A DNA stretch of 64,000 bases from Cystobasidium ongulense (lineage: Eukaryota; Basidiomycota; Cystobasidiomycetes; Cystobasidiales; Cystobasidiaceae). Below, one piece after another: positions 6,091-62,296 of the stretch. Position 1 is the first letter of the stretch; every line of letters begins with the position of its first letter. The DNA is taken from NCBI GenBank assembly GCA_022835595.1, contig BQUP01000005.1, positions 558,001 through 622,000 of the forward strand, in the 5' to 3' direction. The notes under the pieces were generated by a model. It saw only the letters and a list, made by a program, of their open reading frames with translations, searched no databases and was not told where the DNA came from. A program made the position numbers and the translations under genes.

Positions 6091-7759
6091 CTACTTACCA
6101 AGTATGGCGCTGGCATGTGGTTCACACAGGTCTATGTAGCTCAACCAAGTCCCATCCGGCAGTCTAGCACCATAGCCGGATTCCTCGCTAGTATTGAGTA
6201 ACATTCTCTCGTAGAAGATCTCGGCAGGTAGCTTTCCAGTAGGATGCTCATTGACGTCCTGATTGCTAGGGTTGCCAGTTTCGGGCGTTGGCTGCATCCA
6301 CCACATCAACTTCCACCATACATCGGTCTTGACATGCTTCTTGGGACCTGGAAAATGCAGAAAGGCAGGCACGGTGTGACTGATGTGGTTATATACAAGC
6401 GAACGATTCGTCCATTGCTTATTCTTGTCCATAAAGGTCGTCAATAGGTTGGCCTGATGTGCGCTCGTGTCCGAGACTGACTCTTTGAGTGTTTGTAGAA
6501 TTAGATCTTTGTAGCTGAACGTAACGACCTGAAATAGCAGTTGATGTCCATCGGGTACAACAGCATGGGGCCGCTTGGCTTGTATGTCCCCATCGTTCAC
6601 TATTGCCATCACCTCTTGATCGCTTCCCCTCGCTTTCACCATCAATTGTTTATCAGCGATGAGTTTCAGCTTGGCTGACATTCTGGAAAAGAGGTCTTTT
6701 AGTTCGTGGCTTATCCCGATAAGGGCTGCCGACAACCAAGAGCCAAGGAGGACGACGAGGGTGGAGTAAGTAGGCGGATAATGACACGGAATTAGGATCA
6801 TCATCGTTAGAATGGAGGTGCTGGAGCAGCTATGCCGATGGACTTACTGCCGGAGTTAAGATATCTAGGTCTTCTTGTTTCGAGTCGCCCATACCGATGA
6901 TTTGTATGTTTCGATTTAGCGGGATGGACATCAAGAGGGATCATCTCGTTATCCTTGTCAGTTCGACTACCATAGACATCCAAAGGCAAGGGTGACTCGG
7001 GTAGACTTGCGCATCGCTCGTGGACAGGGGGCCAGCAATTCTTCTCTGCTCCAACAATGACACTTGAAGATGACTGGAACGGATAGTTCCGATGCTGCTC
7101 GAATACTAGATCACCAGGTAACTGAGCCCATGCGTCGTACCTGCGTGAATGCCAAGTAAGAGAAAACATCGATTGAATGCAGCTTCTTTGAGGTGGTCAC
7201 AGTTCTTGGCTTACCCATCAAGCATCACAACGACGTCTGTAGAATTCCCTGCTCTGTCTTCCAACCATGTTAGCATGCCTCCAATCTTCTTGTAATGGCG
7301 TGTATTTGTACGATCTTTCCAATTGATCTGTGACGAGTGAGACATAGACAGATGGAGGGGAAACGAACGTCAGTTTCGAAGCTGTGTAAATACGGGACTG
7401 TAGGCTGGGCTGTCGGCGCTACGTACGATTACAGGGGGATCGTATCCATTGATTAATAGAGAGAAGAGAGTCCTGCAGAAATTGGGATTGGATCGAGTGG
7501 CAGGCAAGACAACGATTGGTCTTGTTTGTAATATGGTAGATTCTCGTGGATTGCTATTGTGCGGGTCCTTAAATTGGTGCCACGAATAGCTGTTGTAGCT
7601 AGATGTGAACGAGCGGATGACAAGCACGAATGCGCAAAAGCTGGAGACAATGGCAATAACCTTGAAGCGACGAACGGGCCTTGGTCTTGCTAATGGAAAG
7701 GTCGTAGGCAAACTACCCCCCATGCCCAGCTTGTCCTCCTTACTGTGGTAAACGTACAT
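6091..7759 (-). CDS. PLOD/LH3-like glycosyltransferase, tandem copy A
   Basis: Predicted type II membrane glycosyltransferase of the secretory pathway. Four exons: 7427-7759, 7215-7327, 6848-7140 and 6091-6725; the sum keeps frame and gives 457 residues. The ATG at 7757-7759 (MYVYHSKED) is the first in frame; the open frame further upstream lacks an ATG. A single hydrophobic anchor (VIAIVSSFCAFVLVI) follows a basic stretch. The catalytic part has VVVMLDGYDAW, which carries the DxxD of the LH3/PLOD glycosyltransferase fold, then VIVGAEKNCWP and YLNSGTLIG, all matching landmarks of that family. The sugar and acceptor are unknown. It is the first of three tandem paralogues on the same strand. 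It ends ILGK at TAG 6091-6093. Confidence 0.75.
6791..7380 (-). repeat. Near-identical patch shared with 9149-9738
   Basis: This segment matches 9149-9738 at a constant offset of 2358 bases, with about two mismatches seen over the roughly 570 bases compared (for example cgtcgtacc against cgtcatacc). It covers exons 2 and 3 and introns of copy A. The flanking exons 1 and 4 differ far more from those of copy B. Confidence 0.85.
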
Positions 7760-8449: not shown

Positions 8450-10123
8450 CTAGCCAAGTATAGCACTGAAATAAGGTCTGCACATGTCCATATAGCTAAA
8501 CCAAGTCCCATCCGGTAATCTAGCACCATAGCCGGATTCCTCGCTAGTATCGAGTGCCATCTTGTCGTAGAAGATCTCGGCAGGTAGCTTTCCAGTAGGA
8601 TGCTCATTGACGTCCTGAATGCTAGGGTTGCCAGTCTCGGGCGTTGGCTGCATCCACCACATCAATTTCCACCATACATCGGTCGTGACATGCTTCTTGG
8701 GACCTGGAAAATGCAGAAAGGCAGGCACGGTGTGACTGATGTGGTTATACACAAGCGAACGATTCGTCCATTGCTTATTCTTGTCCATAAAGGTCGTCAA
8801 TAGGTTGGCCTGATGTGCGTTCGTGTCCGAGACTGACTTTTTGAGTGTCTGTAAAATTAGATCTTTTATGCTGAACGTAACGACCTGAAATAGCAGTTGG
8901 TGTCCATCGGGTACAACAGCATGGGGCCGCTTGGCTTGTATGTCCTCATCGTTCACTATGCCCATCACCTCTTGATCGCTTCCCATTATCTTGACAACCA
9001 GTCGTTTATCAGCGACGAGTTTCAGCTTGACTGACATTCTGGAAAAGAGGTCTTTTAGTGCATGGCTTGTCCCGATAAGGGCTGCCGACAACCAAGAGCC
9101 AGGAAGGACGACGAGGGTGGAGTAAGTAGGCGGATAATGACACGGGCAATTAGGATCATCATCGTTAGAATGGAGGTGCTGGAGCAGCTATGCCGATGGA
9201 CTTACTGCCGGAGTTAAGATATCTAGGTCTTCTTGTTTCGAGTCGCCCATACCGATGATTTGTATGTTTCGATTTAGCGGGATGGACATCAAGAGGGATC
9301 ATCTCGTTATCCTTGTCAGTTCGACTACCATAGACATCCAAAGGCAAGGGTGACTCGGGTAGACTTGCGCATCGCTCGTGGACAGGGGGCCAGCAATTCT
9401 TCTCTGCTCCAACAATGACACTTGAAGATGACTGGAACGGATAGTTCCGATGCTGCTCGAATACTAGATCACCAGGTAACTGAGCCCATGCGTCATACCT
9501 GCGTGAATGCCAAGTAAGAGAAAACATCGATTGAATGCAGCTTCTTTGAGGTGGTCACATTTCTTGGCTTACCCATCAAGCATCACAACGACGTCTGTAG
9601 AATTCCCTGCTCTGTCTTCCAACCATGTTAGCATGCCTCCAATCTTCTTGTAATGGCGTGTATTTGTACGATCTTTCCAATTGATCTGTGACGAGTGAGA
9701 CATAGACAGATGGAGGGGAAACGAATATCAGTTTCGAAGCTGTATAAATACGGGACTGTAGGCTAGGCTGTCGGCGCTACGTACGATTACAGGGGGATCA
9801 TACCCATTGATTAAAAGAGAGAACAGAGTCCTGCAGAATTCAGGGTTAGATTGAGTGGCAGGTAGAACAACAATGGGTTTTGTCTGTGATGTGGTAGATT
9901 CCAGTCTATTAGGTTTTCGGTTTTCCCTGGTGCGCTGGTATGCATAGCTGGTGTAGTATGGCATGAACATGCGGATGATAATAACGAGTCCAGCAAAGAT
10001 GGCGAAAAGGGTGACACGCTTGGAGCGGCAGGCCGCCCTTGGCCTTGCTAACAGAACGCTAGTAGGTAGACTGTTTTGGAGGCCACCGTTGTCCTCTTTG
10101 TTCAAATGGTGAAGGTCAATCAT
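8450..10123 (-). CDS. PLOD/LH3-like glycosyltransferase, tandem copy B
   Basis: Paralogue of copy A with the same four-exon plan (exon 1 is 9785-10123, exon 4 is 8450-9081) and 458 residues. The start is the ATG at 10121-10123 (MIDLHHLNKED). The membrane anchor (LFAIFAGLVIIIRMF) and the rest of exon 1 have diverged clearly from copy A, while exons 2-3 and their introns are almost identical and exon 4 differs by scattered changes. The DxxD (LDGYD), AEKNCWP and NSGT landmarks are intact. It ends ILG at TAG 8450-8452, one residue shorter than copy A. Both copies look functional. The pattern suggests gene conversion after duplication. Confidence 0.75.
9149..9738 (-). repeat. Near-identical patch shared with 6791-7380
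   Basis: Partner of the patch in copy A. A two-base insertion (cacgggcaatt against cacggaatt) inside the last intron marks the left edge of the highest identity. Confidence 0.85.
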
Positions 10124-16574: not shown

Positions 16575-17605
16575 CTACTCAGCAGACAATGTGCTGCGTG
16601 CCTCTGCTACTTGACGAACAATTCTGAACAGAGTCTTCAACTCACTATGGCATGTTCTGCAGCACTTGTTGTTCAACGTTTTCAGCTCTATGAAATCCAG
16701 AGCTAGGCGCGGTGGCGGAAGTTCTGTTTCGGAGCCGTAATCCCTGATACGTTGAACAGCTCTACCCCATAATGCCATCGAGGCAAAGGCACTGGAATCT
16801 AACATTTGTAGCCGCGGTATATTTTCCTGTTCTTCCTCCCAGTGGCACGATGATATCCCGCAAATTTCGACTTTTTGACTCTTCATCAAGGAGGCTAGAT
16901 TCTTGAGTCTATCCTGTGTGTCGCCCTTCATTTCAGCCCGTACGCTAGATCTAGTGATCGCAAAGATTCGAGGGGCTCAGTAATGTTATTTCAGCCTTAC
17001 AGCACTATTAATTGGTCCTACTTACCTCGCCAATCTGAGGAATTCGTTGCCGACTGCTTGCATAGCGTAGTGTTCAGCAACAGCGCAGCCCCGCATGATC
17101 TTTACTAATGTAAGACTTTGATGAGATTTGCTGCTGCTGCTAATCCCGGCAGCCTTTAGTACTATTTCCCAGCTTTGTAGTTCGCCCTTCACAATGAGTT
17201 GTGTGCACTCGTTATCAGCGAGTGCCTTTTTGATTTTGTTAGACAGCGATGATACAAGGCCAGGATCCACGCCAGATAGCAGCTTTCTACCTGACGTCTG
17301 TAGAGTTAGTGTATTGAATGGCGGATGCTCGACGTCGTCGGCTGCGCTGGACGGCTCGGCTTTTAAGGACGTCGTGCGCGCATCACTGTCTACACGGGAA
17401 GGCTTAGGTTACGGCATCACCAGCCAGCAGAATCTCGCCAACCAGGCCTAGAGGATGTGTGCACTTGTTGTAGTTGCCGTCCGTCTACGACAGCGAACTG
17501 CAGTAACGGCGAGTTGGTTGCAAGCATGATCGACTTCAACTGCAGCCGCTCGCTTTCCAGGCCATCACAGCCAAAGCGAGACTGGCGAGCTCGTAGAAGG
17601 GACAT
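16575..17605 (-). CDS. BTB-like protein, tandem paralogue 1
   Basis: Unknown function. The start is the ATG at 17603-17605 (MSLLRARQSRFGCDG). The N-terminal block reads LESERLQLKSIMLATNSPLL, which has the spacing of a BTB/POZ core. The middle exon (LLSGVDPGLVSSLSNKIK, then AVAEHYAMQAVGNEFLRLA) is helical and like the BTB-following region of the neighbour. The last exon ends with NKCCRTCHSELKTLFRIV. The neighbouring gene ends with NCCENCKKEVKTLFRLT, so the two are tandem paralogues sharing a C-terminal CCxxC motif that I do not know from standard BTB proteins. The first intron uses a weak donor (gtgcac), so that junction is the least certain. Stop TAG 16575-16577. Confidence 0.6.
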
Positions 17606-36853: not shown

Positions 36854-38868
36854 ATGTCGACGATGCTCCAGCTGGCCGTCGTGGCCATCCTCGCCTACTT
36901 TTCGCTCAAGACGGTGCATGCAGGCGTGAAGAAGTTCAAGCACAACGCTAGAGTAGTGAGGTGAGCGATATCGTCGTGCATTCTGCGTGTGCGGCCCACC
37001 TGCTGATGCCCGCTCACCCCATCACATCCAAAGCCACATCCCAGGCTATCGCATCTACTTCCATCCGCACGTCCTGCTCGCCCAGAGCCTGCCTCGACTT
37101 GGGCGCTTCTTCAACATTGGCGAGCAGTACACATGGCGCTACAAGCACGACCTGTTCAGTCAATTCAACTCCGACCTCATCTCGTTCGTCTCGCATGTCC
37201 CCCAGGGAAGAACGCTGATCACGTGCGACCCGGAAGCGATAGCTTTTATCGTCAAGGACAGGAAGAAGTTCGTCAAGCCTTTGGGGATGTATGGTCCTCT
37301 CGCCATGTTCGGCCCTAATGTCGGAGTGACCGAGGGGAGTGAGTGGACCAAGCATCGAAGAATTGTAGCCGGCTCGAATCTCCTCGAGGTGGGTTCCGTA
37401 CTTTCTTCCCATTTCACGATAGACATGGGTAGCTGACACTGCGTCCCTTCACATGACCAGAACATCAATCATCTAGCATGGGTACACACAATGAAGACCC
37501 TCGAGCTTTGCCTGGAAAAATGGCAAGAGACAATGACTAAAACAGGCAAAAGACAGATTCAAATCAGTAACACTGCCACACTAACCCTGAAGGTAAGAAC
37601 GGCAAATTGCATCCAGATCTGATAGAGGCTGATGCATTAAGCTCCGCAACCAGCTTGCACTGTATATAATATTGGGGGCATGCTTCTCAGCTTCCGCGCC
37701 ATGGGATGATGATGCTCCTGGATCAATACCGTCGAATCATACAATGTCTCTCAGACATGCACTCCATGGCGTACTGGAGAATGTCTGGTGGAAGATTGCT
37801 CTACCGAAAGTGGGTCTTGGTATAGAAAAAATCGTAATTGACAGTATCGTATTTCCAGGCTGACTAGGTGGATAATCCGTACTTTACCTGTTATAGTTCG
37901 CGTACAAATTACCATTCTGCAACTTCTTCAAGCATGTCGCGCAATCCTTTGTCGAATTCGGCGATTACATGAACGAGATGGTAGCAGAGCGTCGACTTAG
38001 TGGCTCTGCCGCTGTAGTAGGAAGCAAACGCGTAGATCTATTAGACGCGCTCATTCAAGCAAGTGGAGGAGAAGACGAAAAGAACGCCAGTTCAGATCCG
38101 ACTGATCTACCGAAACAAAACAAGTACGCTAAATTGACCGATGAAGAGGTCGTAGGCAACATATACGTCTTTCTTCTTGCTGGGCACGATACTACCGCTC
38201 ACACGTTAGCATTCACATTCGGTTTACTTGCGCTTTATCCGGAAATCCAGCAGAAGACCTATAATTCGATAAAAGAAGTACTTCCTGACCTATCAGATGA
38301 GTTGAGCTATGACAAGGTATCCGATTTAAAGTATTGCGTAGCTGTCTTCATGGAGACTTTGAGGCTATACCCATCCGTGGTAATTATCCCTAAATGTTCA
38401 ACGGAAAATACTCTAGTTCCCGTAAAGACCTTTTCTACAGACGGGAAGACCGAATCGTCGGAAGGAATAAAGCAAGTCCTGATACCAAAATGGACAGTAA
38501 TATTCCTAGATGTTCCTGGCTTACACTATAACAAACGTTATTGGGGAGAAGATGCAAGCAGCTTCAAGCCTGAAAGATTCATAGATGATGAAGATGACAA
38601 AGAAGGAGGATATAAGTGGCCAAGAGAAGCATTCATGGGCTTTTCACAAGGTGCAAGAGCTTGCCTGGGCCAGAAGTTCGCGCAGGTTGAAGCCGTCACT
38701 ATGATTGCTGAATTCATAAGAAGATTCGAAGTCGTTATCGATCCTCGTGCGCTGCGGAAAGGAGAAAGTACAGAAGAGGCGAGGATTAGACTTTTGAATG
38801 GTTGTAAAACGGTCATCACTTTGACACCGACACCATTGCCAGTGATATTCAAGGAGCGGTCTCCATGA
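36854..38868 (+). CDS. Cytochrome P450 monooxygenase
   Basis: Membrane-bound haem monooxygenase. The start is the ATG at 36854-36856, with an N-terminal anchor (MLQLAVVAILAYFSL). Exon 1 joins SHIPGYRIYFHPHVLLAQ. Key motifs: I-helix LLAGHDTTAHT, K-helix ETLRLYP (ExxR), FKPERF, and the haem-binding FSQGARACLGQKFAQ with its axial cysteine, all intact. Also seen are the WTKHRRIV block near the C helix and a long charged stretch before the I-helix. At least five exons. Stop TGA 38866-38868, only 88 bases from the stop of the convergent SNIP1-like gene. The overall layout resembles basidiomycete CYP4/CYP63-type enzymes, but the substrate is unknown. Confidence 0.93.
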
Positions 38869-51895: not shown

Positions 51896-53567
51896 ATGAG
51901 CGACCTCGAGGCCCGCTTGGCTTGTGCCTCGTCGTTCATACTGCAGAGCCCGCCAGGCGAGGTGAATGATGTCTTGTGAGGCGACACTCTCTATAGGTAG
52001 TACAGACTTTCAAGCTGAGAAATCATCTACCCTCTTGTCCCTTTGGCGATTCCTGTCAATGTCGCGTGATCTCACTACAGCAACGACGTACGCGCTCTCG
52101 TAGGCGATGATGCAGCACTGGAAGCAGGCATCCTACCTGCATTGCAGAAGTACAACGTCGAACAGCTCATAGTGGCAGACCTCCCAGATAAGCAGCAGGT
52201 GTGTCAGCGGTCATCACCTTTTTCGCCGCCATGCCCCGCGTTCCTGTGCGAGCAACATGGCTGTAAGATGCTACAATGCTGACCATTATAACAACTTCCC
52301 GTGCGCAATACAGCTTATGATATGCTCTCATGGAAATGTCCAAGATGACACAAACCGCTTCATTGAACCGTCAACCGCTAAAGCGTGGATATTTGACCAT
52401 CTCCGCTTGAGTGCAAGTGATCCAGTTGATATACAAGTAGATGCAGAATGTGAAGCTATCCGTGCAGAATTAGAGAAGACCGCCTCCAGCTATGGGAAAG
52501 AGCATTTCACCGAGGGTGTCAGCAAAGTGTTTACGAGCGAACAAAGGAAATTGAAGCCTGCACCAAAACCCAAAGCTAAGCCAGCTCCTGTCGAAGTCGC
52601 TCCTATAACAACAGACGATGTCGCAGAAACAGAACCAGTCAAGGAAGTTGATTACACAGATATGCCAGAAGACAGCACGGCTACTCAAGCGGACGAGACT
52701 AAGACCGACACAGATTTGGTAGACCCAGAGACGGAAGGGCCAGCTGGTGACGAGTCTACCTCTGCTGCTGTCGAGTCTGTCACTGCCTCTGATGTAGTCA
52801 ATGAAGAAGCGCAACCAGATACTATAGACACGGATATGGCAGTGAAACAGTCAAACGCAGAGGAAGACACGCCGAAAGATACGACGATGGAGACCGACGA
52901 GCCAACCGAAGAGCCTAAGCAGTCCAGCGGAGAAACTGCAACCGCAGCTGCACCAGTTTCTGAACAGCCCGAACATCTTCCAGAAGAACAGGAAGAGATG
53001 GAGGAAGAGACCCCAGCGAATCCTCTGCCTAAACGCTTCTCGCTCTACTTTGTGGGCAATAAGTACAATCCCTCCAATTACTGGTAGGCTCGAGGCATTC
53101 CAGGAGCAGAGTGCATCAACTAAGTATCTCTATTGATAGGACTGGCCGTTGGCGATCTTCATACGAATTGGACTTATCACAAGGGCAGGCTAAACTCCAA
53201 GGGAACATTCAGATAAATGTCCATCTTTTCGAGCAAGGGAACGTACAGCTAGCTACCAGCTTTACGCCGACGATACCATTGCCCGAACCTTTGAGCGCCA
53301 GTAGTCCACCAGCAGATATTGCTAAAGCTGTAGTCAAGGGCATCTCGAAAGTGGAAGAAGAATATCAGTTGGAACTGAATGAGGCGTATCGCGATATGGC
53401 GGACCGAACATTCAGAAATCTGCGAAGAGTGTTACCAGTAAGCGTGCACCTAAGTACCTGTTCGATACGCAGTCTGACGACGTTTCTCTGCCTAGGTCAC
53501 TCGTCAAAAGATGGACTGGGCAAAGGTTGCAAGTTACAAGATTGGTAGAACCCTCGGTGGCGAATAG
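51896..53567 (+). CDS. CAP1: F-actin capping protein alpha subunit with large insertion
   Basis: Alpha subunit of the heterodimer that caps actin filament barbed ends. Five exons (51896-51975, 52081-52198, 52314-53083, 53140-53437, 53496-53567) sum to 445 residues in consistent phase. Conserved blocks: ASSFILQSPPGEVNDV, FNDVRALVGDD, IFDHLRLSASDP, YFVGNKYNPSNYWTGRWRSS, and the C-terminal actin-binding part EAYRDMADRTFRNLRRVLPV, KMDWAKVASYKIG. Family members are usually near 270-290 residues. The excess is one acidic, Pro/Glu/Thr/Ala-rich insert of about 160 residues (roughly 143-304) between GVSKVF and KRFSLYF, inside an exon with no stop. The folded core appears complete on both sides. Stop TAG 53565-53567. 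Confidence 0.92.
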
Positions 53568-54859: not shown

Positions 54860-57257
54860 ATGGCAGCTTTCCAATCCAACTTTGTCCAAGTCGGCTCCAA
54901 CCAGCGCAAGATCCACTATGTCGAAGCTGGACCTGCTTCTGGAAACGACGCCGCACCAGTTGTAGCGCTTCATGGTCTTGGAGGGTGAGTTTCGCCGGGG
55001 ATGTGCAAGATACCTGCAGCTGCTGCATACAATATAACTCGGTGAGATTAGTATAGGCTGACCTTAAGACCGCCCTAGATCGTCGTCCTTCTGGCTTCCG
55101 GTCTTCCACGCCTCCAAACTAGCGGAACAGCGTCGTGTGATCGCCTATGACTTTGACGGCCATGGACACAAGAGCGAGTTCAGCGGAAGCACCAGCATTG
55201 ACTCGCTAGTATCAGACCTCAAAGATGTCTTGGACGGACTCTCAATCCAGAAAGCTGTAATACTGGGCCATTCCATGTCCGGCGTACGCTTTCCTATTAC
55301 TCCGGTTCCAATGTATGTGCTTGTTTTGACAGCCTTCTATGCTTCCATACAGCTCGTTGCGTCTCTCTTCGCCAAACAATACCCGGACCGCGTCGAAAAG
55401 CTCGTTCTCCTCCATCCTGTCCGTAATCTCGCTGAAGCCGGTCGCCAAGGCATGAAGGCTCGAGCAGGTGTCGCCACCTCCGGACCACTCGCCATGACTC
55501 AAATCGCCAATACCGTTTCAGCGGGTGCCGTCAGCAAGCACACTGCTGCCACAAATCCCACAGCGGTCTCCTTCATCCGCCATCTTGTAATGACTACGAA
55601 GCCCGACGCGTACGCTGCAGCTTGCTTAGCACTAGCCGATTCTCCTGAATTAAGCGGAAAAGACATACCTTGCGAATTAGCAATTATCGCAGGTGAAGAA
55701 GATTATCTGGCAGGTCCAGATGCTGTTAAGAAATGGGCAGCAGAAATTCCAAATGGCAAAGGAACTTGCACAGTGCTGAAGGATGTTGGACATTGGGGTG
55801 CTATTGAAAATCCTGTTGCTGTAGCCGATGCTCTGTTGCAGTACCTTCGACCGACGTAAGCAATGCATGCTGTAACAAGTGCCCTAAAGCAAGCATGCTG
55901 ATATGAATTCACTGGAATCGTGGTCGCTGCTAGCAGATCTTACAATATCTTGCTAGGCACATTCAGATCGCCGTATCTCTTCACCCTCTCGTTCGATACC
56001 AAAAGCGGCAAGCTGGAGCTCCTTCATACTAACCAAGCTATCGGTGGTCATTCCTGGCTGGATGTATCGCCAGATGGCAAAACATTATACACCACATGCT
56101 GGACTACACCTCCCGTAGTGGCATCATATTCTATCCTGCCCCCATCTTCGCAAAAGCCCTTCCCTACGGTAGAGCTATCAGCTAAGATTCCAAGCAAGAA
56201 CTTATCCGGATATGTGTGCTCTAATAAAAAAGCCATGTATTCGGCATGTGGACCTCAGGTCGATGTATTCCTACTGGATGAACAGACGGGAGCTTTAAAA
56301 ACACAAGAAGCTGTACAGAGCTTCGCACTCGTCAATCAGGAGGATATGCATAAAGGTAACTCGCAGATGGATTTTGGCGGATTAAGACATGGAGGACATG
56401 TGAGCTGCAACGGCGTTCAATCTGACTGTACGTTCTTGGCTCATGATGCTCTGGCCACTTTGCAGAGCTGCGACTTGTCTCCTGATGGAACAAAATTATA
56501 TGTGGCGGACATGTAAGTTGCTTTTCTCCAATGATAGCTGGGACGTACCGCTCACATAGCGGCGCTTCCTCAGTGGTCGAAATTGTGTTTGGATGTACCA
56601 CGTCGACAAAGAAACAGGCTTATTGAAGGAGGCATCCAAGAACATCGCCAAACGAGGCCACGACGGTCCACGACATGCATGGCCACATCCAAATGGCAAG
56701 ATTGTGTACTCGCTACAGGAGCACTCGTCCTATGTCGATGTACTTGAGTTGACTGAAGATGGTCAACGCTTGGAATGGCTGGAGGGAGTAGACATTCTCC
56801 CCGAGGGTGGTGACTGCCATCTCTTTTGGGCAGACGGTGAGTGTGATTATATTCTCCGTGACGTCCACACGGCAAAGGCTGATACAAGAGCTCCCTCACA
56901 GAGGTCCGTCTGTCGCCCAATGCAGATACGCTCTTCGGCTCAACACGAGGACTGGAAGCACATACCAAAGGTTTCGTTACCGCATGGGATCTCCTTCCCA
57001 ATGGTCGCCTAGCAAGACCAAATCAAGATGCCAAGCATCGTTTCGAGACGCATACTTCAGGAGGGTGGGCAAATGCAATTGCGACATGCCCAACACTCGG
57101 TCCAGATGGGCAAGTCTTCCTTACGCTCACTGATAGCGAAGAAGGATTCTTGCAAGTACTCAGCTATAGCAAGCAGGATGGCTTCAAGGTCGTTGATGAA
57201 GTGCGCTTGGGATCAGAAAAGGAACAGGTAGGGGCAAGTATTGCAGTTTGGCTTTGA
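54860..57257 (+). CDS. Hydrolase-lactonizing enzyme fusion of the beta-ketoadipate type
   Basis: Seven exons in agreeing phase (54860-54984, 55079-55283, 55353-55855, 55937-56399, 56466-56512, 56574-56836, 56902-57257) give 653 residues. Residues 1-277 form an alpha/beta hydrolase like 3-oxoadipate enol-lactonase: HGLGGSSSFW (oxyanion part), nucleophile GHSMSG, acid region GEEDYLAGPDAV, and catalytic-His region DVGHWGAIENP. Residues 278-653 form a seven-bladed lactonase of the carboxy-cis,cis-muconate cyclase family: YNILLGTFRSPYLFTLSFD, GGHSWLDVSPDGKTLYTT, RHGGHSCDLSPDGTKLYVAD, GHDGPRHAWPHPNGKIVYSL and HTSGGWANAIATCPTLGPDG. The 81-nt intron at 55856-55936 joins the two; if retained, TAA 55857-55859 ends the hydrolase alone. 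The propeller part has no in-frame ATG of its own. The two steps are successive in the pathway. Confidence 0.78.
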
Positions 57258-57535: not shown

Positions 57536-59080
57536 TTACTTAGAGCCATTGGTGGCAATAGCGACGCCAATGCTCGATTCGACAGTTGCATCACCCTTTT
57601 GGGTTGCCTTTGCTAGCCAGAAGTTCTGTTCTAGTTCGTACTTGATCTTGCCTTCGTATTCTGCAGGTGGTTGGTATCCCTTGCTTAGAGGGTTGAAGTT
57701 GACAATGAGCTTGTCTTTGACGGCAAAGACGGAATCGTCGGAGAGGTCTGTGCGCAATCACGATAGAGATTAGCCTGGGTTGCTCTGAAAATTTCGCAAA
57801 TAAGTGAGTATCGCTTACAATCAGACTCGCTGTCGAAAACTTGAGTGATTAGAGTCTTGTGGCCTGGTGCCTCAACCCAGAACTGCAGAAAGGCACGAAC
57901 AGGTCAGCAACATGCCATTAATGGTCCAGAAGAAGAGTTGGACTCACGTGAATGTGAGCAGGTCTGTATGGGTGTCGGTCCATCATCGTAAGAAGCTGAC
58001 CGGCTTGATGGTCGAAAGGAATAGGGTAGGGAGTAGGCTTGAGGCAGATAGTCTCATATCGACCATTCTCATCAGTGCGGAATCGACCACGGCAATGGTA
58101 TTCTGGCTTTTCAGGTGATTGAGAGTCGTAAAGTCCATCAGGCTGTTTAAAAGCAGTTCTTAGAACATTGCTTCGCAGTGAGACCGTTTGTTCAGAAAGT
58201 AAATCCCACTCACAGCATCATGCCAGACATCGACAACGGCGCCAGCAAGTGGCTTGCCATCGGCACCGTGGATTACACCGAAAAGATGAGTGTATGGTGC
58301 ATTTGGCTCGTCTTGTCGGATGATAGTTGTGCCATTTGGCTGGATGGGTACACCAGATCGGTAGAAAGGTCCGAGAATAGCAGAAAAGGTTGTGTTATCT
58401 TCTCCCTTGCTTGAAGGTCCGCCGACGGCCTTGCGCTGGGCACGGGTCTGGTCGAGGGTGTCTGTGGCAGGACGATGAGGTGGTTATGCTATCAGTATAA
58501 GCCGCTGGAAAGCTAAGCCGACAGCCACTGACCGACAAGCGACTCAATTCCGAAAACGTCGCTGCAAAGGACGACTTCGTGGCGGTCTGGGGTGGTGACC
58601 TTGCCTGCACCGGCGAGAAGGTTGCATGCAGCCATCCATTCTTCAAGAGTCACATCTGCCTCGATACAGAACTCGTGCATCTTCTTAATGAGGATGGGCA
58701 TGACCTGGAGGGATAGCGCGTTCGGGGGAAGGCGGTGGATCAGAGGAGCAGGACATTACAGTCAGCTGGAGGACTCTATCATCACGTATATGTAGCTTGT
58801 GGAGCTCCTGAAAGTCATGATGGCTGCCAATGATACTGGCACCGGGATCTCTTCCGGAGCGTGTTCGAGCAATGCAATCATCCCACGGGAGCTCCAGCAG
58901 CAGCAGAGACGGGCAACGCACCTCTTTGACGCGAGGAGAGGCCTTAGGGCCGATGGCATTGATGCTGTGTAGATGTATGGGGTGAGTATCCAATCAGCAC
59001 TACTGCATATCTGGCTGCTCTTCGTTCTCTCCATCCACTCACACCGTGTCGGTATACGCAGAGAAGTCGAAGTCGGCCAT
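57536..59080 (-). CDS. Intradiol ring-cleavage dioxygenase (catechol/hydroxyquinol type)
   Basis: Non-haem Fe(III) enzyme that opens catechol-type rings between the hydroxyls. The start is the ATG at 59078-59080 (MADFDFSAYTDT), which joins VINAIGPKASPRVKEV and MPILIKKMHEFCIEADVT, the helical dimerisation domain of single-subunit catechol/hydroxyquinol dioxygenases. The catalytic part reads ILGPFYRSGVPIQPNGT, PLAGAVVDVWHDA, DGLYDSQSPEKPEYHCRGRF, GRYETICLKPTPYPIP and HPYRPAHIHFWVEAPGHKTL; the expected two Tyr and two His iron ligands are visible. At least six exons. Stop TAA 57536-57538, convergent with the fusion gene. The helical N-terminus argues against protocatechuate 3,4-dioxygenase; catechol versus hydroxyquinol is open. 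Confidence 0.88.
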
Positions 59081-59729: not shown

Positions 59730-60176
59730 ATGGCCATCTCACAGGGACTTTCCGACTTCATCAAAGCCTTTTACGCCGCGAGCGACGTCGGTCCATCCGG
59801 GCACGAAGCCTATGTATCTCACTACACAAATGATACGACACTCATAATGGGACCCACAGAGTTTAATAACAAAGAAGGCGTGATGAAATTCAGAGAAGCA
59901 GGATGGGAAAAAGTATCAACTAGAAAACATATAGTCAATGGTATCTTCCCTTCAGCTGACAAACCGGAGGAGCAAGTTATGCTACATGGTATTGTCGATT
60001 ATGGTATGAAAGATGGAACAAGCAAGAGTGGTATTGAATGGGCTGCTTTGATGAATCTCACAAAGGAGAAGGGCGAATACAAGTTGCAGAAGTATCAAGT
60101 TTGGATTGTAAGTAGCGAGGTCTCCTGAAATAAAATGGAGCTTCCGCTAACTTGGATATTTCGCACGCAGCGATAA
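59730..60176 (+). CDS. NTF2/SnoaL-like small protein
   Basis: The ATG at 59730-59732 gives MAISQGLSDFIKAFYAASDV, then HYTNDTTLIMGPTEFNNKEG and a strand-rich second half (MLHGIVDYGMKDGTSKSGIE, YKLQKYQVWI). The pattern of N-terminal helices followed by curved strands fits an NTF2-like/SnoaL-like cone fold, which includes small hydrolases, isomerases and ligand-binding proteins. The reading ends with an intron (gtaagtagcg to gcacgcag, with a gctaac branch site) and a last coding exon of only CGA TAA (60171-60176), giving about 129 residues. It sits beside the aromatic-pathway genes, so a link to that pathway is possible but unproven. Confidence 0.65.
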
Positions 60177-60603: not shown

Positions 60604-61366
60604 CTATGCCTTCAAGGACTTGACGTATTCCTGTCTGAAAGGGTTGTTCTCTAGTTCCGTTCCACGCCGAGGGAGGGGTGTCCACTTGGGCTCAGCCTGG
60701 ATAAATAAAGAAGAGTAGTGTAAGTATCTGCAGGCAAGACTGTTGCCTAGTAGTGGTAGTTGCCCCACCTTGAACAGTCGCATGGCTTTCACGGCATTAT
60801 TAGAGTCAAGAGTGAAGCGGTGATAGATACCAGCGGGGACTATAATCAAGTCGTCTGTGTCGACCTGCAGATCACATTACGCGTGTAAGCATGTCTGCAA
60901 GAGTTGCAATGGTCGTGCCTGCTTACCTGTATTCTGATCCATCGGGCATCATCCTGAGTCCTGACATCAAAGTAGCCAGAACCGTCGCGAATATATCTAA
61001 TCTCCTCATCTTCATGAAGATGTTCCTCGTAGAATGACTTGATCTTGCTCTCATATGCCTCTCCGAGACCTGCTTTCGTGACGTTGATCTGTCCAAAAGT
61101 GAAAAAGAGGCGGTGGCGCCATCACAGCATGACAGTCAGTACTGTAACACGACGGACGGACACTTGTAAAGAGTTTAAGAACGCCTACTCACCTCGTCTC
61201 TAGCTACATATCCTCTGTCTGAAGCTATCTTGTTGACGTCGTCCATGCTCTGGTTGACGAAACCGAGGACTCCGACTTTCGCGAGCTCTTCGAGGCTGAG
61301 GTGCTCTCCCGAGTCATGGGGCGCCGTAGGATGAGCGTCTGACTCGTCGTGTATCCAGACCTTCAT
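60604..61366 (-). CDS. Acireductone dioxygenase
   Basis: Cupin-fold metal dioxygenase of the methionine salvage pathway, converting acireductone to the keto acid precursor of methionine. Four exons. The ATG at 61364-61366 gives [20 protein letters not shown], then [40 protein letters not shown] (metal-binding HxH and Glu), [37 protein letters not shown] (second histidine site) and a C-terminal [19 protein letters not shown]. It ends at TAG 60604-60606. All key metal ligands are visible and the length is normal. The position next to aromatic-catabolism genes is probably incidental. Confidence 0.93.
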
Positions 61367-62296
61367 TGTGTGTGGGATCTACGTAAGTTGAGAGCTTCCG
61401 GTTTGAGCTGACGCTGAATTCCAGTGGGGTTGGCAAATGAAAGAGCTCTGAACTGCACGTTTGCATCAAAGTGGGCCTCTTTCTCGCCTCAATCGTAGAT
61501 GACCATAGCAACCTGATGTGAAGATGCAGCAAGCTTGTACGATAGTGCAATCTGCCCATGTTCCTGTCGCCAATGGACACGTCTTCCCCGTCAAGCCATC
61601 CGAGCCGGTCGAATCTGGCTCTCTTTTGTTGGAAATCCTGATGAAAAGCCACAGATGGCACAATGCAAGCGCACGCACGCGGCTCAGGAGGCTTGAACAG
61701 CAACAGAACAACACAACCTGCATGCCATCTCCTCCTCCTGTCTGATCTTTTGTGCTTTTGTTCCTCCTGCTAAAGTTTGAATGGGCCCTTTCGGCTGTCC
61801 AAGCGTCGACTATAACCGCACCTAATCATCAAAAGCTAAAGGCAGATGATGTTCCTATCTCGCTCATCAACCAGCACAGAATTCTTGCATAGTTATCTTT
61901 TGCACCGTTGAATCACAGACCCCATTCCTTTCCTTCGCTTCTCACAGCAGGACATCCATTTCTTCTATTTACAGTGCACGGGCAGGTACCGTCACTTATC
62001 CTCTCTCCACAATTCCTGCTTATCATTATCATATCACAACTTCACACATTTACTACCAGTAAGCTGTTTAGAAAGCCCTTTCTTATCACGTACACCTTTC
62101 TGACGGACAGTTCCCCCTTCAGCTTACTTCCCTTTGCGAAACTCCCATTTTACGTAGCTGTACAAAGTACAGTACCAAATTCGGCCAAGCAACGACGTAT
62201 AGGTCAACATACAATACACTCGCATACACTCTTTTCAAAGTATCACATCGTCAGCATCAGATCGTAAGGCTACACATTGACAAATCACCCCTCAAC
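61367..62296. promoter_or_regulatory. Divergent promoter region with pyrimidine-rich leader
   Basis: About 0.93 kb between two divergent starts. The right half is pyrimidine-rich on the plus strand and lacks long frames with features, as expected for a fungal 5' leader of the gene at 62297. Confidence 0.45.

Follow-up and report, generated by a model that had tools for sequence, protein, structure and literature searches.

In a 64,000-nucleotide stretch of Cystobasidium ongulense DNA (the window), a single gene likely encodes one predicted protein of 653 amino acids, in which a PcaD-like hydrolase (residues 1 to 277) is followed by a carboxymuconate-cyclase-type propeller (residues 279 to 653) and which would work in aromatic ring breakdown. 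If the fusion is made, it shows neighboring pathway genes merging through the splicing-out of a stop codon, and it is a candidate for work on muconate conversion.

We rebuilt the gene model from the window sequence, which with its short GT-AG introns has the look of fungal DNA; a high number of short introns per gene would suit a basidiomycete host. At positions 54860 to 57257 of the + strand, seven exons give 653 codons and a TGA stop in a single frame, and all six introns are GT-AG, with lengths of 94, 69, 81, 66, 61, and 65 bases. An earlier sequence-only reading of this DNA had proposed seven exons with canonical borders in one frame over 653 codons, and the rebuilt model bears this out. 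The parts of the gene and its neighbor are as follows.

54860 to 54984, + strand: exon 1, hydrolase part, with the start ATG
55079 to 55283, + strand: exon 2, hydrolase part, whose 3' end is the nucleophile motif GHSMSG (Ser107)
55353 to 55855, + strand: exon 3, hydrolase part, with Asp227 and His257; the unspliced reading stops at TAA 55857 to 55859
55856 to 55936, + strand: predicted linking intron, 81 bases, phase 2, whose donor GTAAGC overlaps the hydrolase stop codon
55867 to 55871, + strand: possible mini-exon ATGCT that would begin a separate propeller gene (rival model); its donor is GTAACA at 55872
55937 to 56399, + strand: exon 4, first propeller exon, opening with SYNILLGTFRSPYLF; its final codon is the conserved His432
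56466 to 56512, + strand: exon 5, propeller
56574 to 56836, + strand: exon 6, propeller, with Arg481 and Glu497
56902 to 57257, + strand: exon 7, propeller, with Arg551 and the SGGWANAIATCP stretch; stop TGA
57536 to 59080, - strand: neighboring seven-exon gene for a 323-amino-acid intradiol ring-cleavage dioxygenase (hydroxyquinol/catechol 1,2-dioxygenase type), tail to tail with the fusion

A Pfam search of the joined protein listed six families and placed two domains within one chain: Abhydrolase_1 (PF00561) at residues 33 to 264, with 81.9 bits against a cutoff of 25.8, and Lactonase (PF10282), whose best stretch at residues 286 to 552 scored 99.2 bits against a cutoff of 21.7. The top NCBIfam models for the hydrolase are all of PcaD type (PcaDC, 123.8 bits; TIGR02427, 118.4 bits over residues 18 to 276; PcaCD, 111.8 bits), and the best model of any other type, an acyltransferase subunit, scored 86.2 bits. 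Among the 25 models shown of 37, none was matched by the fusion protein at its curated cutoff. The hydrolase scored below the TIGR02427 equivalog cutoff (118.4 bits against a curated 255.85), a comparison that sets a fungal protein against curated models made for bacterial and archaeal annotation. We aligned the hydrolase with 6 of its 30 bacterial matches, and the triad Ser107, Asp227, and His257 was invariant in all seven sequences. The C-terminal LLQYLRPT falls roughly at the end of these stand-alone bacterial relatives. Judged by its sequence, the N-terminal half is predicted to be an alpha/beta hydrolase of PcaD-like type, in which the Ser-Asp-His triad is complete.

The solved relatives of the propeller (seven sequences at an E value of 0.001 or less) comprise YbhE-type and other bacterial lactonases and the Neurospora carboxymuconate cyclase 1jof. 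Four residues of 1jof that we take to be catalytic, His148, Arg196, Glu212, and Arg274, are matched by propeller residues H156, R205, E221, and R275 (H432, R481, E497, and R551 of the fusion), and SGGWANAIATCP together with the ensuing TDSEEG also has a counterpart in 1jof. The four residues are invariant in the three aligned sequences, one of which is a YbhE-type lactonase; since that enzyme carries them too, they neither settle the substrate nor prove cyclase activity. The C-terminal half belongs to the Pfam Lactonase propellers and is related to the Neurospora carboxymuconate cyclase. The names previously given to the two domains, enol-lactonase-type hydrolase and carboxymuconate-cyclase-type propeller, hold at the family level across Pfam, NCBIfam, and the solved relatives.

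Searches with the propeller as a single sequence found one stretch fitting a pattern among the viral contigs and nine among the genome contigs, with no relative in either set. A small profile (A1) reached 80 bacterial loci, the best of at least 253 relatives, at 21 to 35% identity, plus four loci on viral contigs. We take the profile loci for bacterial 6-phosphogluconolactonases, given the YbhE relationship and the taxa; they are uninformative on the structure of a fungal gene.

Whether one protein or two is made depends on the junction between the halves. Read past exon 3, the hydrolase frame meets its own stop, TAA 55857 to 55859, which lies inside the donor GTAAGC at 55856. Removal of the 81-base linking intron would instead join ...LLQYLRPT to SYNILLGTF..., so that both domains, as predicted from the DNA, lie in a single reading frame and are connected through a few residues only. 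We scored donors with a matrix built from the 15 other introns of the locus (five from the fusion gene, four from an upstream gene for a 95-amino-acid protein, and six from the dioxygenase gene). These training donors were chosen by frame and homology and lean toward canonical sites, so the matrix is biased in that direction; on this scale the donor at 55856 scored 8.34 bits, a value that 0.93% of the window's 7,221 GT sites (both strands) reach. For points picked at random on the + strand, the frequency of an in-phase donor of at least 8.3 bits no more than 81 bases away is 0.012. The acceptor at 55937 is mediocre, at 4.25 bits, a score reached by 10.5% of 9,065 AG sites, and it would be shared by any splicing from the rival donor. 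From the frame, the donor scores, and the spacing described below, we hold with good confidence that the gene is better modeled as encoding one fused protein.

The main competitor, which we consider unlikely, is a pair of tightly packed genes, with the hydrolase ending at TAA 55859 and the propeller beginning at ATG 55867. The sequence-only reading had stated that each ATG from 55860 to 55936 either leads to a stop or is out of frame. This is correct for unspliced sequence, but ATG 55867 to 55869 plus CT, spliced from the donor GTAACA at 55872 across a 65-base intron to the acceptor at 55937, gives MLSYNILLGTF in frame, which allows a model in which the propeller is a gene of its own and starts with a coding mini-exon of 5 bases. 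More widely, 106 combinations would splice an upstream ATG into the propeller frame, many of them from within the hydrolase's own frame. The 65-base intron falls within the length range of the locus introns, and MLSYNILLGTF is in register with the N terminus of the Neurospora enzyme (query residue 5 aligned with chain residue 4), a stretch that by itself scores 0.0 bits. With the rival start in the Neurospora register and the hydrolase ending close to the end of its free-standing relatives, both halves look whole, with almost no linker between them.

Against two genes stands first the donor itself. GTAACA scores 2.41 bits (top 17%) and lacks the G at +5 that all 15 other donors possess; besides the donor at 55856, no GT between 55701 and 55925 scored above 2.41 on the matrix. 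In a leave-one-out test the training donors ranged from 1.6 to 9.7 bits, and 1 of the 15 (at 1.6 bits) fell under 2.41; a donor as weak as the rival is therefore possible. The gap between two genes would also be 7 bases, too small to fit a terminator and a promoter into noncoding DNA; by comparison, the preceding predicted stop is 408 bases away and the following one 278. In addition, ATG 55863 lies just 5' of ATG 55867 in a different frame, and a joined enzyme is on record for Basidiomycota (PMC13094099).

Less probable still, in our estimate, is that one transcript serves two products, with retention of the linking intron yielding the hydrolase alone, ended by TAA 55859, and splicing yielding the fusion; the weak second donor may further yield an mRNA read in two frames. 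The stop codon inside the donor GTAAGC and the presence of two possible donors for one common acceptor count in favor of this reading. Because the donor contains the hydrolase stop, the linking intron would then act as a switch, a role we regard as doubtful, with retention versus splicing setting how much free enol-lactonase is made relative to the lactonase-cyclase fusion. The overlap can, however, be coincidence, since GTAA arises wherever TAA follows a final sense codon whose third base is G. Finally, a reading in which a functional hydrolase sits next to a decaying propeller remnant that lacks a start is very improbable: the first in-frame ATG of the unspliced first propeller exon does come only at 56235, but the propeller reads open for 375 codons across its four exons, its introns are GT-AG, residues typical of the family are retained, and neither a stop nor a break in the frame was seen in it.

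In the favored model, that of one gene and one fused protein, the fusion probably arose through splicing from a donor that overlaps the hydrolase stop codon to an acceptor where the adjacent propeller gene began. The neighboring intradiol dioxygenase would open the aromatic ring, the propeller would lactonize the resulting muconate, an isomerase or decarboxylase step would be supplied elsewhere, and the hydrolase would then open the enol-lactone to 3-oxoadipate. That a ring-cleavage dioxygenase adjoins a putative cyclase and enol-lactonase speaks for a function in the 3-oxoadipate pathway. The best solved relatives of the dioxygenase are 6-chlorohydroxyquinol dioxygenase 8r2x (181.3 bits) and PnpC (170 bits), with catechol 1,2-dioxygenases scoring lower; all five of its NCBIfam matches lie under the cutoff, and a single-sequence search of the viral contigs found no relative. 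We know of no cyclase on the hydroxyquinol route. That route leads to maleylacetate (PMC12366324), and the placement of the closest solved relative on it counts against the proposed pathway.

The sequence-only reading had further inferred that the lactone is channeled directly from cyclase to hydrolase, which comparison with known fungal branches does not support. Alongside its 3-oxoadipate-enol lactonase (AN4531), A. nidulans carries a muconolactone isomerase (AN4061) in the catechol branch (PMC8283699), and in the protocatechuate branch of A. niger 3-carboxymuconolactone is handled by a separate hydrolase/decarboxylase (PMC10406623). Direct channeling does not fit an isomerase standing between the cyclase and hydrolase steps. 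Given these intervening steps, we propose instead that the fusion would provide coexpression and proximity of two pathway steps.

Divergent from the dioxygenase gene is a 132-amino-acid open reading frame (59730 to 60125, + strand) that looks NTF2/SnoaL-like by eye. It had no Pfam match up to an E value of 10; a longer, 192-amino-acid reading had none up to 0.1 and no PDB match better than 0.034. A single-sequence structure model was of low confidence (pLDDT, 44.2). As a candidate for the missing isomerase step this frame is speculative.

Elsewhere in the window, a cytochrome P450 fragment (37897 to 38865, + strand; PF00067, 169 bits) lies about 16 kb from the fusion, and an F-actin capping protein alpha subunit (52173 to 53545, + strand; PF01267) has a long acidic insert in its first open reading frame. 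An acireductone-dioxygenase-like (cupin) protein, its pieces split by introns, was recognized by eye at 60620 to 61370 on the - strand. Also on the - strand, an open reading frame at 16578 to 16976 resembles by eye a piece of a LINE-type endonuclease and may be what is left of a transposon, and two frames at 6094 to 6843 and 8453 to 9187 have in common the stretch CHYPPTYSTLVVL.GSWLSAALIG.SH.LKDLFSRMS.KLK, which suggests a tandem gene duplication. Rfam gave no match at gathering score.

Among known systems, the hydrolase half has the fold, triad, and length of the 3-oxoadipate enol-lactonase PcaD (TIGR02427; PDB 2xua), although it scores under that family's curated cutoff (118.4 against 255.85). 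The bacterial bifunctional proteins PcaDC and PcaCD, named PcaL in some actinobacteria, likewise join an enol-lactonase to a second enzyme of the same pathway. Their partner is a carboxymuconolactone decarboxylase, unlike the propeller here: the PcaDC profile was matched only at positions 8 to 253 of 375 (123.8 bits against a cutoff of 390), so that the match is to the PcaD part, and no decarboxylase domain was among the six Pfam families listed. The Neurospora cyclase 1jof belongs to the same propeller family, and the residues we take to be catalytic and the SGGxxNAxxxCP stretch recur in the fusion; unlike the fusion it is stand-alone, and it aligned at 37.4 bits, with 28% identity over a 196-residue segment.

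The closest counterpart is found in Basidiomycota. The FAMeDB paper (PMC13094099), with a 2019 review behind it, mentions a multifunctional enzyme of this phylum that combines cyclase and enol-lactonase, the same two enzyme classes within one protein as here. The fusion, which the sequence-only reading had not known as a described enzyme, is therefore not new. The likeness lies in the enzyme classes, as the passage on it states no domain order and shows no sequence, and the literature on the fusion accessible to us held no report of an assay of the joined enzyme. A putative role as muconate cycloisomerase, as given there, would suit the adjoining intradiol dioxygenase. In Ustilago maydis, UMAG_02142 is listed as a putative muconate cycloisomerase, in an account (PMC5082525) whose available portion is silent on a fusion. 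The predicted protein of C. ongulense probably belongs with this cyclase-plus-enol-lactonase enzyme of Basidiomycota, and it adds to that record one further example, with an exact predicted junction.
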